The translations under genes were made by a program, and so were the position numbers. DNA of 64,000 nucleotides from Pseudorhizobium pelagicum (lineage in GTDB: Bacteria; Pseudomonadota; Alphaproteobacteria; Rhizobiales; Rhizobiaceae), in NCBI GenBank assembly GCA_000722615.1, contig JOKI01000003.1, positions 56,623 through 120,622 on the forward strand, read 5' to 3'. The notes beneath the pieces are model-generated. The model did not search any database. It saw only the letters and a list, made by a program, of their open reading frames with translations, and had not been told where the DNA came from. Of this stretch, positions 232 through 5,787 are shown piece by piece. Every line of letters begins with the position of its first letter. Position 1 is the first letter of the stretch.

Positions 232-3200
232 TCAATATCCCTCGTAGGCCGACACGACGGCCGCGATCTGGGCGGCGTTCATCGCTTCCATCTGCGGGAC
301 CGTGATGGCCTGGAGCTGACTTCTCGACAGGCCGGTGATGTCGTCCGTCGACAGGCCGGCGATGCCCGTGGCGCTGATCGAGGCGATATCCTCCAGAGAG
401 AAGACCGCCAGATCGTCGGCGTTGAGGGCTGCGATCTGGGCAGAGCTCATGCCTGCCACCTGGGAGGGTGTGAAGGCCTCGATCTGGGCCGTCGACATGC
501 TGCTGATCTGCGCCGTCGTCAGGCCGATGATCGCCTTGCCGCTGATGGCAGTGATCTGCTCGGTGGTGAAGGCCGCGATGCTGCTCGTACCGAGGGCGGC
601 CAGCTGGATCGCATTAAGGGCCCCGATCTGACCGGAAGTCAGCGCGCCGATCTGCGCCGGGTTCATGGCCCGAACCTGACCGAAACCGAGGGCCGCGATC
701 TGGGTGGTCGTCAGGGCAGCGGTGTCTTCCGAGCTCAGGGTGCCGATGGTGGTGGTGGAAAGGCCCGCCAGCGCCGCGATGCCGATTGCGGCGATCTCGC
801 TGCTGGAGAAGGCGGCCAGATCCTCGGCAGAGAGAGCGCCCACCTGGGTCGAGTTCAGCGCGGCAATCTGTGCCGCGGAGAGAGCTTCGACCTGGGTGGT
901 GGACAGGGCATCGATCTGCGCCGTCGTCAGACCAGCGATCGCACCGTTGCTGAGGGCCGCGATCTGGTCCGTGGAGAGTGCCGCAATGGCAGAGGTGGGC
1001 AGGGCCGAGAGGCCTGAGGAACCCAAGGCGCCGATCTGGCTCGTCGTCAAGGCCGCAATCTGCTGCGTTCCCAGACCCTGAAGTTGTTCCGATGTCAGCG
1101 CGGCGACCTGACCTGTGGTCAGAGCCCCAAGCTGCGCGGTGGTCAATCCGCTCACGTTGGCGGGCGACAGACCTGGAATGGCTGCCGCGGTGATGGCTGC
1201 GATATCGGCTGTCGAGAAGGTCGAGAATGCTGCCGTGCTCAAGGCGGAAAGCTGCGTGGAGCTGAGATTGGCAACCTGGGAAGGGGTGAGGGCCTCGATC
1301 TGCGCCGAGGACAGGGCGCCGATCTGTGCGGTCGTCAGCCCCGATACCGTCTTCCCGGCCAATGCGGCGATCTGCTCGGTCGACAGGGCGGCAAGGTTGC
1401 CGGCCGGGAGACCGGATATCGCCGAGGAACTCAGCGCGGCGATATCTTCGGTCGAGAGGCCGGCGAGGACGGCAGGCGTCAGCGCTGCGACCTGGCTGGA
1501 GCTGAGGCCGGCGACCTGCGCTGTCGTGAAGGCGTCGACCTGCGCGCTGGACAAAGCCTCCACCTGGGCGGTGGTCAGTCCTGCCACGGCCTTGGGGTTG
1601 AGGCTGGCAACCTGGTCCGTCGTCAGGGCGGCCAGCGTGGAGGTCGACAGGCCGGAGATCGCGGTCGAGCTCAGGGCGCCGATCTGTGTGCTCGTGAAGC
1701 TGACGATCTGCGTCAGGGTGAGGGCCTGGATCTGGCTCGACGTCAGCGCCGCCACCTGGCTCGATGTCAGGGCGGCAAGCTGCTCGGAACTCAGCATGCC
1801 GATGCTTGCACTGGAGAGGCCCGCGATCGCGGCCGTTCCGATCGCGGCAATATCGGCGGTCGAGAAGGTCGCGATGTCCGCGGACGACAGGGCGCCCACC
1901 TGCGTGGAGCTCATGGTCGCCACAAGACCCGGTGTCAGCGCCTCCGCCTGTTCCGTATTCAGGGCATCGATCTGTGCCGAGCTCAGGCCGGGAATGGCCT
2001 TGGTCGTCAGTGCCGCAATCTGCTCGGTCGAGAGGCTGGCGACGGCGTTGGTCGACAGCGCGGCCACTTGCGCCGAGCCGAGGGCGGCCACCTGCGTGGT
2101 GCTCAGGGCCGCCAGCTGGTCGGTCGTCAGCGCGGCCATCTGGGCGGTGGTCAGCGCGGCCACCTGGGTCGGCTTCAGAGCCTCGACCTGTTCATTGCTG
2201 AAGGCGGCCACGCTTTCGGTGGGCAGCCCGCTGATCGCCGAGGAGGACAGGGCGGCGATGTCTTCAATCGAGAAAGTGGCGAGATCGGCAGTGGTCAGGG
2301 CGGCCACCTGGGCCGAACTGAGACCCGCGACCTGCGTCGAGGTCAGAGCCTCGACCTGATCGGTCGAGAGAGCCTCCATCTGGTCGACGGTCAGCCCTGT
2401 GATGGCCTTGCCGCTCAGCGCTGCAATCTGATCGGTCGAAAGAGCTGCGATGGTCTCGGAGGCGAGCGCCGCCACCTGCGCGGCGGTCAAGGCACCGATC
2501 TGGGTGGAGCCAAGGGCCGAGAGCTGGGATGTGGTCAAGGCGGCGAGCTGGCCCGTCTTCAGTGAGGCGATCTGGGCACTGGTCAGTGCTGCCACCTGGT
2601 CTTCGCTCAAGGCCGCAATGCTGTCGCTCGACAATCCGGCGACGGCTGCTGCATTGATCGCGGCCAGACGCTCGGGCGAGAGGCTCGTCAGCGCGGTGGT
2701 GCTGAAGGCGGAGATCTGGGCGGAGCTCAGGCTGCCAATCTGGGATGAGGTCAGGCCGTCGATCTGCGCGGTCGAGAGGCCCTGGATCTGGGTCGACGAC
2801 AGGGCGCCGATCGCCTTGGTATTCAATCCGGCAATCTGCTCGGGAGACAGGGCAGCGATCTGTGCGGTGGAGAGCCCTGAGATGGCGGCCCAGTTGAACG
2901 TGCCGATCTGGGCCGGGGTCAAGGTGGACAGCTGCTCGCTGGTTAGGGCGGCGAGCTGGCCGGTCTTCAATGCCGAAATTTGCGTCGCCTTCAGCGCCGC
3001 CACCTGCTCGGCGCTCAATGCTGCCAGACCTTCGCTGGAGAGGCTGGAAATGGCCGACGCGCTGATTGCCGCGATGTCGGACGTCGAGAAGGTGGCGATA
3101 TCCGCAGAGGACAGGGCCGCGATCTGCGCCGCGCTCATGGCCGCCACCATGACAGATGTGAGGGCTTCGGCCTGATCCGTCGTCAACGCCGCCACCTGGG

Positions 3201-5535
3201 CCGTCGTCAGGCCGGAAACGGCCTTGGTGCTGAGGGCTGCAATCTGCTCGGTCGACAGCAGCGGGATGCTGTCGGTGGAGAGAGCCTTGAGCTGGACGGC
3301 TGACAGTGCTGCAACCTGGGACGTCGTCAGCGCCGCAAGCTGCTCGCTCGTCAGCGCAGCGACCTGCGCCGTCTTCAGGGCCGCGATCTGGCTCGCCTTC
3401 AGGGCCGAGATCTGGTCGGCGGTGAGGGCTGCGATACCGGTGCTCGACAGGCCGCTGAGTGCCGAAGCGCTGAGTGCAGCGACATCCTCGGCCGAGAATG
3501 TCGCCAGTCCCGCTGTGCCGAGTGCCGCCAGCTGTGACGAGGTGAGGTAGGCCACCTGCGACACCGTCAAGGCCTCAGCCTGCTCACTGCTGAGCCCGGC
3601 AATCTGGGCCGTGGTCAGTCCGGAAATGGCCTTGGCGTTCAGAGCGGCCGTCTGGTCGAGGTTGAGGGCGCTGACTGCCGCGACGGACAGAGCCTTGACC
3701 TGCGTGGCGTTGAGGGCACCGATCTGGGCGCTGTCGAACGCTGCGATCTGATTGGTGGTCAGAGCTGCAACCTGTGCCGTCTTCATTGCGGCAATCTGAT
3801 TTGTCCGCAGCGAGGCGATCTGCTCGGCGCTCAAGGTCGCGACATTGGCGGCGGTGAGCGCCGAGAGGGCGGCCGGGCTGAGCGCCGGGATATCTGCGAT
3901 CGAGAAGGTAGCCAATGCTTCGGGGCTCAAGGCGGCGACCTGGCGGGACGTGAGGCTTCCCACCTGGGAAGAGCTCAAGGCCTCAACCTGCGTGGTGGAC
4001 AGGGCGGCGATCTGAGCGGGGGAGAGAAGGGCTATTGCCTTGCCGGTGAGGCTCGACACCTGCTCGAGCGAGAGTGCCGCCATGCTGGAGGTCGACAGGC
4101 CCGCAACTGCGGCTGGACTGATGGCGCCTATCTGCGAGGTCGTGAGGGCGGCAAGCTGATCGGTCGTGAGAGCGGCAAGCTGCTTCGACTTCAGGGCTGC
4201 GACCTGGGTGACCTTCAGTGCGGCCACCTGGTCCGAGCCCAAGGCGGCGATGCTGCCGCTGGAAAGACCGGCGATGGCGAGGGCGCTGATCGCGGCAATG
4301 TCTGCGGTGGAGAAGGTGGCGATGTCTTCGGACGAGAGCGCAGCAATCTGCGTGGAGCTCATGGCACCGACGAGTGCCGAAGTGAGCGCTTCCGCCTGAT
4401 TGGTGGTGAACGTGGCGATCTGTGACGCCGTCAGGCCGGAGATCGCCTTGGCGTTGATGGCGGCGATCTGGCTCGTCGACAGTGACTGAATGCTGGCCGA
4501 TGACAGTCCCCTGATCTGGAGCGCCGTCAGCGCCCCGATCTGCGTGGTGCTCAGGCTTGCGATCTGGTCCGTCGAAAGAGCCGCGATCTGCGTGCTCTTC
4601 ATGCCGGCGACCTGGGAGGTCTTCAGTGCCGCCAGCTGCTCCGTGGTCAGGGCCGCGACGGAGGCAGTGGACAGGCCGGAGATGGCTGGCGAGGTGATGG
4701 CCGCAATGTCGGCCGTGGAGAAGGTCGCAATGTCTGCGGACGACAGGGCGCCGATCTGCTGGGCGTTCATGGCGCCGACATGGGCCGGGGTCAGTGCTTC
4801 CGCCTGACTGGTGGAAAAGGCCGCGACCTGGGTCGTTGTCAATCCCGGGATGGCCTTGGCACTCAAAGCCGCAATCTGGCTTGTCGACAATGCCGCGACG
4901 CTGGCGGTGGTCAGGGCCCTCAGTTGCGTGGAGCTCAAGGCGCCGATCTGGGAGGTGGTGAGGCCCGATATCTGATCGCTCGTCAACGCCGCGATCTGCG
5001 TCGTCTTCAGGACGGCAACCTGTGTCGGCGTCAGTGCCGCCAGTTGCTCCGAACTCAGCGCCATGACGCTGCCGCGCGAAAGGCCGGCGATGGCCGAGGA
5101 GCTGATGGCGGCAATATCGGCCGTCGAGAAGGTGGCAATTTCCTCGGTCGTCAAGGTCGACAGCTGCGAGGCGTTCAGCGCCGCGACCTGCGCCGGGGTC
5201 AGGGCTTCGATCTGGAAGGAGTCAAGTCCGCCGATCTGTCTTGCGCTCAAGGCGCCGACCTGATTGGCCGCCAGGGCTTCGATCTTCTGGGTGGTGAAGG
5301 CCGCCAGCTGGTCCAGCGTCAGTCCGACCATGGCGGGCGTCGAAATGGCCCGCAACTGCGAGGTGGAGAAGGCGTCCAGGTCTTCCATTTCCAGTGCCGC
5401 AATCTGGGCGGCGGAGAGGGCACCGATCTGCGCCGTGGACAGCGCGTTGATGTCCTCCGTCGTCCAGGCCTTGATCTCCCAGGATTTCAGAGCCTTGATC
5501 TGGCTGATGCCGAGGGAAGGAACGGTGGAAGTCAT
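232..5535 (-). CDS. Giant octapeptide-repeat protein (about 1767 aa)
   Basis: I do not recognise a function. Apart from a short N-terminal stretch the whole protein is an uninterrupted series of about 220 octapeptides of the form L-[ST]-x-x-Q-[IV]-x-A, for example LSTAQIGA and LTPAQVAA. The Leu, Ser/Thr, Gln, Ile/Val and final Ala/Gly positions are the conserved ones. A second period of 17 octads (136 aa, 408 bp) is superimposed, marked by octads such as FSTADIAA and a once-per-module [AGTN]-K-A-[IV] octad. Charged residues are few and mostly Asp/Glu. I see no signal peptide, membrane helix, RTX nonapeptide or enzymatic domain; the end is VVSAYEGY. The frame is open upstream to 5730, but the ATG at 5535 has a good Shine-Dalgarno (AAGGGG) and begins the repeat-like sequence (MTSTVPSLGISQIKAL), so I chose it. 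S/T-x-x-Q is a helix-capping pattern, so a solenoid of short helices is possible (inference). A secreted or surface role is plausible but unproven. Confidence 0.85.
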   Translation of the reverse strand: MTSTVPSLGISQIKALKSWEIKAWTTEDINALSTAQIGALSAAQIAALEMEDLDAFSTSQLRAISTPAMVGLTLDQLAAFTTQKIEALAANQVGALSARQIGGLDSFQIEALTPAQVAALNASQLSTLTTEEIATFSTADIAAISSSAIAGLSRGSVMALSSEQLAALTPTQVAVLKTTQIAALTSDQISGLTTSQIGALSSTQLRALTTASVAALSTSQIAALSAKAIPGLTTTQVAAFSTSQAEALTPAHVGAMNAQQIGALSSADIATFSTADIAAITSPAISGLSTASVAALTTEQLAALKTSQVAGMKSTQIAALSTDQIASLSTTQIGALTALQIRGLSSASIQSLSTSQIAAINAKAISGLTASQIATFTTNQAEALTSALVGAMSSTQIAALSSEDIATFSTADIAAISALAIAGLSSGSIAALGSDQVAALKVTQVAALKSKQLAALTTDQLAALTTSQIGAISPAAVAGLSTSSMAALSLEQVSSLTGKAIALLSPAQIAALSTTQVEALSSSQVGSLTSRQVAALSPEALATFSIADIPALSPAALSALTAANVATLSAEQIASLRTNQIAAMKTAQVAALTTNQIAAFDSAQIGALNATQVKALSVAAVSALNLDQTAALNAKAISGLTTAQIAGLSSEQAEALTVSQVAYLTSSQLAALGTAGLATFSAEDVAALSASALSGLSSTGIAALTADQISALKASQIAALKTAQVAALTSEQLAALTTSQVAALSAVQLKALSTDSIPLLSTEQIAALSTKAVSGLTTAQVAALTTDQAEALTSVMVAAMSAAQIAALSSADIATFSTSDIAAISASAISSLSSEGLAALSAEQVAALKATQISALKTGQLAALTSEQLSTLTPAQIGTFNWAAISGLSTAQIAALSPEQIAGLNTKAIGALSSTQIQGLSTAQIDGLTSSQIGSLSSAQISAFSTTALTSLSPERLAAINAAAVAGLSSDSIAALSEDQVAALTSAQIASLKTGQLAALTTSQLSALGSTQIGALTAAQVAALASETIAALSTDQIAALSGKAITGLTVDQMEALSTDQVEALTSTQVAGLSSAQVAALTTADLATFSIEDIAALSSSAISGLPTESVAAFSNEQVEALKPTQVAALTTAQMAALTTDQLAALSTTQVAALGSAQVAALSTNAVASLSTEQIAALTTKAIPGLSSAQIDALNTEQAEALTPGLVATMSSTQVGALSSADIATFSTADIAAIGTAAIAGLSSASIGMLSSEQLAALTSSQVAALTSSQIQALTLTQIVSFTSTQIGALSSTAISGLSTSTLAALTTDQVASLNPKAVAGLTTAQVEALSSAQVDAFTTAQVAGLSSSQVAALTPAVLAGLSTEDIAALSSSAISGLPAGNLAALSTEQIAALAGKTVSGLTTAQIGALSSAQIEALTPSQVANLSSTQLSALSTAAFSTFSTADIAAITAAAIPGLSPANVSGLTTAQLGALTTGQVAALTSEQLQGLGTQQIAALTTSQIGALGSSGLSALPTSAIAALSTDQIAALSNGAIAGLTTAQIDALSTTQVEALSAAQIAALNSTQVGALSAEDLAAFSSSEIAAIGIAALAGLSTTTIGTLSSEDTAALTTTQIAALGFGQVRAMNPAQIGALTSGQIGALNAIQLAALGTSSIAAFTTEQITAISGKAIIGLTTAQISSMSTAQIEAFTPSQVAGMSSAQIAALNADDLAVFSLEDIASISATGIAGLSTDDITGLSRSQLQAITVPQMEAMNAAQIAAVVSAYEGY
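375..5118 (-). repeat. Nested tandem repeat: 24-bp octad unit inside a 408-bp module
   Basis: The codons for the octad equivalent to xxADIAA(I) were located in each module. Reading the plus strand, the equivalent GC(A/G)ATxTC-like sites start at 5111, 4703, 4295, 3887, 3479, 3071, 2663, 2255, 1847, 1439, 1199, 791 and 383. Eleven of the twelve intervals are exactly 408 bp; the one from 1439 to 1199 is 240 bp (10 octads), as if seven octads were lost. The module at 2663 keeps register but its marker octad has become LSPERLAA. Modules are diverged at the nucleotide level, so this is an old duplication series maintained without a single out-of-phase indel. Confidence 0.92.
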
Positions 5536-5787
5536 GAACGAAGCCCCTTGATGTAATCCATCATCCAAATCAGCCATGTCGCATGGCGAGGGCGGCAGAG
5601 CGATCTTCACCGCTTCTGTACCCTTCACATGCCACGGGCAGCAGCAGAACCGCCGCTTGCCATACGCGCACCCGTAAGCGTTTATCGACAGGCAGGCTTG
5701 CTCCAACCTGTCGCGAGGGGCGCGGTTCATGTCACGGGAAGAGGCTGACGAAACCCGCGGTCCGCTTGGCTGCGATATTGACAGGTA

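Follow-up and report, generated by a model that had tools for sequence, protein, structure and literature searches.

Why does a protein built of some 220 octapeptides repeat itself, one level up, at intervals of exactly 408 base pairs (bp)? The question is raised by a gene on the minus strand of a 64,000-nucleotide stretch of the Pseudorhizobium pelagicum genome (assembly GCA_000722615.1, contig JOKI01000003.1, positions 56,623 to 120,622), hereafter the window. This octad gene occupies positions 232 to 5535 and encodes tandem octapeptides, or octads, of the form L-[ST]-x-x-Q-[IV]-x-A. The answer that we consider probable is that the octad protein is a secreted, O-glycosylated, rigid and striped α-solenoid with about 3.4 octads per superhelical turn, whose stripes set the 408-bp pitch.

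An octad array with an old and exact pitch

The open reading frame (ORF) runs from 232 to 5730 on the minus strand and spans 1832 residues. Begun at MTSTVPS (window position 5535), it gives 1767 residues and 220 octads in a single register, the last of which, VVSAYEGY, is the tail of the protein and not a true octad. MTSTVPS is the likely start, as it matches homologous N-termini such as MTSIISSLSVxQIRSLST. According to the octad listing the tandem octads cover most of the protein, and their number agrees with the initial annotation, which had been made from the letters of the window alone.

The identity autocorrelation of the octad protein shows the expected peak at a lag of 136 residues, with a value of 0.497 over a composition baseline of 0.119, and continues with 0.488, 0.472, 0.463 and 0.454 at two to five times this lag. 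The remaining multiples of eight mostly lie at about 0.32–0.38, with lags of 56, 80, 216 and 352 residues raised too (0.40–0.43). At the DNA level, octads of the FSTADIAA type start at 5130, 4722, 4314, 3906, 3498, 3090, 2274, 1866, 1458, 1218, 810 and 402, with a degenerate LSPERLAA between the sixth and the seventh of these. The marker intervals amount to eleven of 408 bp and one of 240 bp, just as first described. Octads of the form x-K-A-[IV] share this spacing, at 17 octads eight times, then 10 and then 34, the last gap arising because one copy lost its K. The two markers that had been assigned to every module are therefore real, but one FSTADIAA-type copy has degenerated and one lysine is gone.

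The super-repeat had also been called exact, which holds for the interval but not for the sequence: modules at lag 136 share 50% protein and 60% DNA identity. At identical residues their codons agree at 0.51, compared with a background of 0.43–0.45. Synonymous agreement is thus near background and the modules are old, which means that the 17-octad pitch is kept through much module divergence.

Charge stripes and superhelical phase

What, then, is being kept? Within the octad protein, D/E-containing octads have a spectral power of 51.1 at five cycles per 17 octads, while the other harmonics of 17 reach at most 5.5. This observation was extended to the homologues, for which ORFs shorter than 900 residues or containing X were dropped and the remaining 109 were reduced to 93 by shared 6-mers; the period, phase and harmonic analyses refer to this set. 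Without any alignment, the D/E period falls between 3.30 and 3.50 octads in 89 of the 93, with a median of 3.388. In all but one (92/93) the D/E periodicity is stronger than in any of 20 shuffles of the octads, for which the frequency grid was coarser.

Basic residues follow the same period on the other side. The K/R phase differs from that of D/E by 176 degrees on average (R 0.88), and 82/93 homologues lie within 180±45 degrees; ten sets of permuted K/R octads place 20–34 there, with whole-protein phases in the permuted sets and windowed phases in the real one. Acids outnumber bases about threefold (medians of 139 and 47).

The fifth harmonic (k=5) dominates for D/E in 89/93 homologues, for K/R in 75/93 and for G in 60/93. 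This is informative because an arbitrary 17 would let any harmonic dominate. Threonine prefers k=7 (60/93) and glutamine k=2 (72/93), which are aliases of the second and third harmonics of k=5; V, P and N show no clear harmonic preference among the 93.

The same rhythm is seen when octads are compared regardless of charge. Mean inter-octad identity rises most at separations of 7, 10, 17, 20, 24, 27, 34 and 37, all near-whole multiples of 3.4. When seven distant ORFs are added, giving a set of 100, the five highest lags of a protein lie within 0.12 of a whole turn in 89.6% of cases; for lags 4 to 40 taken together the share is 27%. The top identity lag among the 93 homologues is 136 residues in 56, 80 in 19, 272 in five, 216 in four, 192 in three, 135 and 133 in two each, and 328 and 263 in one each.

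These values suggest that 17 octads correspond to about five turns, 10 octads to 2.94, 24 to 7.06 and 31 to 9.0 at the twist of their own lineage. The possibility, raised early on, that 17 octads equal a whole number of superhelical turns is thus supported. The octad and the 17-octad pitch, on both of which selection had been proposed, are likewise supported; but lengths of 10, 24 and 31 octads are near whole turns as well, and the target of selection would seem to be the rotational phase, not the number 17. In other words, it seems to be the rotational register that is conserved; the 136-residue lag leads in the majority of homologues but is not the only length used.

Predicted structure and co-variation

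An AlphaFold2 model of two modules with 60 further segments gives a predicted local distance difference test (pLDDT) score of 97.4 and a predicted template modelling score of 0.88. The model holds 34 short helices, one per octad. For the C-terminal 296 residues (pLDDT 96.5) the solenoid runs on into a last, longer helix of 13 residues (283–295 of the segment).

Independent of the model, co-variation was derived by mean-field direct coupling analysis of 1145 two-module windows (effective number 582), with pairs less than six residues apart excluded from the counts. Among the top 100 couplings, 40 join octads at a separation of 3, 13 at a separation of 1, and 10 each at separations of 2, 4 and 17. 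Among the top 300 cross-position couplings, separation 3 has 100, followed by 4 with 39, 2 with 28 and 1 with 26. Couplings at i+3 and i+4 are accounted for by a turn of about 3.4 octads, which predicts contact with the octads of the next turn. The exact twist and handedness of the solenoid we infer.

The turn rule in distant lineages

Does the rule extend beyond the 17-octad proteins? In strongly repeated proteins the spectral peak is bound to coincide with some harmonic of the repeat, and it is therefore the choice of the dominant harmonic that counts as evidence there. Two distant loci (L147, L149; loci are given by L numbers) have a 192-residue repeat, that is 24 octads or 7 turns, with a D/E peak at 3.434 octads and a K/R peak at 3.425–3.434. 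Another (L151) repeats at 248/496 residues, or 31 octads and 9 turns, with a period of 3.444 and a power of 101. Two further proteins (L148, L152) are without a strong super-repeat and the acid period is still 3.444. In still more distant proteins the rule shows less strongly. Four of these (L158, L159, L161, L162) have identity lags of 192, 384, 80, 304, 496 and other residues, which are near-whole turns at about 3.44. In the distant regions L153 (genome G200) and L160 (G520) no ORF passed the octad filter, and they are outside the measured set.

From the same more distant group, five octad frames (L154–L157, L163) have a K/R peak at 3.38–3.41, the strongest in four of them and the second in L156. 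They are giant frames of up to 6436 residues from one distant family, in which a two-octad alternation in the style of ADTQLNGL/TSxQLASL is laid over the 3.4-octad K/R period.

A probable partner glycosyltransferase and a possible route of export

Octad genes are often accompanied by a gene for a TPR-containing glycosyltransferase of family GT41 (PF13844). It is present in 64 of the 107 loci of a first set. Since the same place had been fetched twice in some cases (e.g. L050/L106, L061/L109), loci of the larger set were counted non-redundantly: GT41 occurs in 58 of 97, and in 48 of these the distance to the octad gene is no more than 1 kb. In a sample of 60 genomes of relatives, 20 carry the octad family, PF20080; a GT41 match above 570 bits is found in precisely these 20, and the other 40 reach at most 315.4 bits. 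Relatives share ancestry and the agreement therefore does not represent 20 independent events. In one genome (G035) the best GT41 is on a different contig from the octad gene examined. Further away, GT41 exceeds 575 bits in three of five class-level carriers outside the order and 500 bits in seven of the 13 searched out of 24 other carriers at phylum level. As a side observation, one GT41 gene (G016:C1:2270240-2272254) matched as two overlapping pieces; it adjoins the multi-frame octad gene L060.

The source genome (G000) has a single GT41 gene (G000:C2:10489-12537; L040:5489-7537), with a profile match to PF13844 at 236 bits plus TPR matches; it lies beside an octad paralogue, L040, on another contig than the octad gene of the window. 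As it is the only one, this enzyme may serve all three octad proteins of the genome in trans. Which sugar might it transfer? The gene for UDP-galactopyranose mutase, glf, is found in 37/107 octad loci, and this neighbourhood gives a hint of galactofuranose. A 417-residue gene with a Methyltransf_FA match occurs in 19/107.

A second association concerns export. Genes of type I secretion systems (T1SS) adjoin octad genes in 10 of 124 loci (L135, L137, L143, L145, L147, L149, L158, L159, L161, L162), which belong to Acetobacteraceae, two further families and Pseudomonas, all outside Rhizobiaceae. One of them (L143) has ABC, HlyD and TolC genes, and the other nine an ABC transporter and HlyD, the transporter being annotated as 'peptidase domain-containing' in L145. 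Within Rhizobiaceae, only L065 and L097 show moderate ABC matches (39–45%), with a 33% HlyD match in L097. In the source genome, two HlyD-type adaptors, on contigs C18 and C5, score above the curated cut-off.

The C-terminus might carry the corresponding signal. A tail of the form [IVLM][IVLMA]xxY ends 92 of the 138 ORFs scored, fragments included; the C-terminus alignment was restricted to sequences with the Tyr tail, and its invariant Tyr is there by selection of the input. A second type of C-terminus (L044, L045, L099, L117, L141 and others) ends in a short hydrophobic tail, e.g. VASIISSYLAV, behind a linker rich in Ser, Thr and Ala.

Proposed model and its alternatives

How could these observations be combined? 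On the reading that we prefer, each octapeptide would form one short helix, probably capped by Ser/Thr, within a rigid screw. The number of an octad would set the direction in which it faces, and its sequence would be specialized for that direction, with acidic residues on one face and basic and small-residue (Ala5/Gly8) octads on the opposite one. Duplication or loss of blocks of 10, 17, 24 or 31 octads would keep the stripes aligned and other lengths would not; the 408-bp pitch would be exact because 17 octads make 5.0 turns and preserve the stripes. By family context, the TPR-GT41 enzyme would most likely modify Ser/Thr residues of the octad protein in the cytoplasm, and a type I system would export it via an uncleaved C-terminal signal. 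The long glycosylated rod would then be displayed and would bind, or assemble laterally, through its charged stripes. The octads, their pitch and periodicity, the opposed stripes, the couplings at i+3 and i+4, the confident helical model and the co-occurrence with GT41 are observed; glycosylation, secretion of the copy in the window and lateral assembly are expectations of this model.

A number of observations weigh against this reading. On the structural side, octad sampling alone cannot separate 3.4 octads per turn from an alias of about 1.42; the couplings at i+3/i+4 speak for 3.4, but those at separations 1 and 2 are raised too. The acid period lies outside 3.30–3.50 in L095, L121 and two frames of L143, and five homologues (lags of 135, 133 and 263 residues) have a pitch without a whole number of octads. 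Among the distant proteins, the D/E peak at 4.8 octads exceeds that at 3.43 in L147 and L149; in L148 and L152 the K/R residues follow no clear 3.4 period; in L154–L157 and L163 the acids show a strong alternation at 2.0 octads; and L158, L159, L161 and L162 lack an acid stripe, with 15–20 acids per protein. On the genomic side, the octad gene's own locus (L039) has no adjacent GT41, and no T1SS gene was recognized among ten neighbouring proteins tested. The 570-bit line that defines the close GT41 set was drawn after the gap had been seen (573.6 versus 315.4 bits), and a strong GT41 is missing in two of five class-level and six of 13 searched phylum-level carriers.

An extension of the solenoid model carries coiled-coil logic one level up: octads take the place of residues, the superhelix that of the α-helix, and 10/3, 17/5, 24/7 and 31/9 that of heptads and hendecads. 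A seam would pack the glycosylated solenoids laterally into a secreted fibre or sheet, and lineages that differ slightly in twist would have arrived at different super-repeat lengths so as to remain in register. The proposed seam consists of small-residue (Gly8/Ala5) and basic octads at octads 0, 3, 7, 10 and again 17, opposite the acidic stripe; octad positions 13/14 show only a mild K/R rise. We regard this extension as possible and put it forward tentatively.

Alternatively, the stripes could bind a ligand instead of each other, with the basic face lying along an acidic polysaccharide (exopolysaccharide, capsule or lipopolysaccharide) on the cell surface and the acidic face turned outward. 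The position of the basic stripe, at 180 degrees to the acidic one, would suit this arrangement, as would the polysaccharide or sugar genes (glf, glycosyltransferases) often found near octad loci. These neighbours may, however, just supply the sugar of GT41, and the roughly three-to-one excess of acids over bases counts against it. We therefore think this option unlikely, if less so than the two that follow.

It is improbable, in our view, that the solenoid stays inside the cell as a scaffold or filament and is modified there by GT41 as intracellular proteins are by OGT. No N-terminal signal peptide is apparent in the octad protein when judged by eye, and its own locus and nearly all Rhizobiaceae loci examined are without a T1SS beside the octad gene. 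Yet T1SS cassettes stand beside octad genes in ten loci from at least three lineages, the two HlyD-type adaptors are encoded elsewhere in the source genome, and the short, hydrophobic and conserved tail at the C-terminus is compatible with an uncleaved signal for export.

Least of all do we expect the pitch to be a relic of unequal crossing-over, in which one 408-bp unit was amplified and then drifted, without any structural reason for 17: the modules do resemble each other, are 79–83% identical in some homologues (L057, L050), and same-position couplings make up 25/30 at separation 10 and 30/33 at separation 17 among the top 400, which looks like exchange between copies, but synonymous agreement is close to background, amplification of an arbitrary unit predicts no preferred harmonic where k=5 leads for D/E in 89/93, the alternative lengths of 10, 24 and 31 are near whole turns, and L148 and L152 keep the 3.444-octad acid period without a strong super-repeat.

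If the solenoid reading holds, whole superhelical turns would explain, simply and in a quantitative, testable way, why a solenoid protein has the higher-order repeat lengths it has. One might then read the twist of a fold from its sequence alone, and the rule predicts which module lengths are allowed. It would also tie a family of giant proteins for which we found no paper to a dedicated glycosyltransferase, through the exact co-occurrence among 60 relatives, and in other lineages to type I export. Taken together, this suggests that the octad family is a glycosylated surface structure in root-associated bacteria.

Features of the octad gene and its surroundings

Table 1. Octad gene of the window, its modules and its C-terminal helix.
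Feature	Position in window	Strand	Basis and remarks
Octad (ALTTAQ-repeat) protein	232..5535	-	1767 aa; likely start MTSTVPS; stop codon 232-234; homologous N-termini; PF20080
Octads 0-16, divergent N-terminal module containing AWTTEDI	5107..5514	-	Octad listing
17-octad module, octads 17-33	4699..5106	-	
17-octad module, octads 34-50	4291..4698	-	
17-octad module, octads 51-67	3883..4290	-	
17-octad module, octads 68-84	3475..3882	-	
17-octad module, octads 85-101	3067..3474	-	
17-octad module, octads 102-118, last octad LSPERLAA (degenerate marker)	2659..3066	-	Octad listing
17-octad module, octads 119-135	2251..2658	-	
17-octad module, octads 136-152	1843..2250	-	
17-octad module, octads 153-169	1435..1842	-	
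Short 10-octad module, octads 170-179	1195..1434	-	240 bp; probably about 3 superhelical turns (10/3.4 = 2.94)
17-octad module, octads 180-196	787..1194	-	
17-octad module, octads 197-213	379..786	-	
C-terminal 13-residue helix within IAAVVSAYEGY, conserved hydrophobic...Tyr tail	238..276	-	Candidate secretion signal or cap; AlphaFold2 helix

The octad gene is flanked by an ABC system of the branched-chain amino-acid type and by a molybdopterin oxidoreductase set, the latter together with a LacI regulator and an ABC set of the sugar type. When T1SS ABC queries were run against this locus, they aligned over about 210 residues only, at 31–32%, at the ATPase of the sugar-type set. Elsewhere, flagellin genes (L144 7809-9829) or curlin genes (L140 1-6013) lie near octad loci, possibly as part of a shared surface-structure neighbourhood.

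Family and distribution

As judged by profile match, the octad protein belongs to the Pfam family PF20080 (ALTTAQ repeat), with 1060.8 bits against a gathering cut-off of 26.4 and 73 matching stretches. The source genome has three octad genes, namely the one described here, L040 on contig C2 and L041 on C17. Counting this genome each time, PF20080 is carried by 20 of 60 relatives, by 6 genomes in a class-level sample of 289 and by 25 in a phylum-level sample of 299 (22 over the curated cut-off). The named relatives with octad genes are mostly Rhizobiaceae, and among 14 control genomes only Caulobacter vibrioides matches. Some octad genes are split into several frames (L143 6248-13689, Pseudomonas asturiensis; L145 10317-15437, Pseudoroseomonas cervicalis; L046 6509-9568, a relative), for which decay, programmed shifts and misassembly of the repeats are possible causes.

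Several other identities were set aside. Further Pfam matches (CAAP1, Sigma70_r4_2, EndoS leucine-rich repeat and others) and leucine-rich-repeat matches in the PDB were judged to be driven by composition, and a lanthipeptide leader in NCBIfam stayed under its cut-off. A phage origin found no match among phage records; the best fold matches in BFVD are phage proteins with a query TM-score of at most 0.30 (best 50). PADLOC gave no match to a defence system.

The initial annotation knew of no described function for this architecture. There is a named Pfam repeat and a solved relative, PDB entry 9zem, but a literature search under the family name, HeliScrew and related phrases, typical peptides and term combinations returned nothing on the octad family. 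The family is thus known by name, and the turn rule, the opposed stripes and the linkage to GT41 and T1SS appear to be new within the searches made.

Comparison with known systems

The Pfam model of PF20080 covers 38 positions, and the super-repeat, the turn rule, the stripes and the linkage to GT41 and T1SS go beyond it. The nearest solved chain, 9zem or 'HeliScrew4', shares the octad form (108 residues aligned; phmmer E 1.2e-18). It comprises 120 residues only, its aligned octads are mostly [LM]-[ST]-P-[ED]-[QK]-x-A-A, and the comparison is one of name and alignment; 9zem is absent from the best 50 of 353 Foldseek matches. Among the PDB matches listed by Foldseek, the best are mesothelin superhelices with query TM-scores of 0.23–0.43. 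These are helical solenoids like the predicted octad protein, and with such low TM-scores and 13–17% identity they present an analogy of architecture only. RTX proteins are built of calcium-binding nonapeptides of the form GGxGxDxxx; judged by eye, the octad protein shows octads only, and no RTX family is found among its Pfam matches.

For the glycosyltransferase, one analogue is FlmG of Caulobacter. It is reported to bind flagellin, an exported surface protein, through a TPR domain at its N-terminus and to glycosylate it in the cytoplasm by means of a GT-B domain (PMC7591256). The octad-linked enzyme differs from FlmG in its Pfam GT41 match and its linkage to octad solenoids. Another is HMW1C, a cytoplasmic GT41 acting on a large exported adhesin, HMW1; it lacks the TPR fold and makes N-links (PMC3983070). 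N-glycosylation in this manner is disfavoured for the octad protein, with too few NxS/T sites (5 in 1791 residues of the octad stretch). HMW1 is reported to use two-partner secretion, and the export partner of the octad genes in other lineages is a T1SS. Finally, coiled coils place their a and d positions at spacings of 3 and 4, and the seam positions proposed for the octad solenoid are spaced alike.

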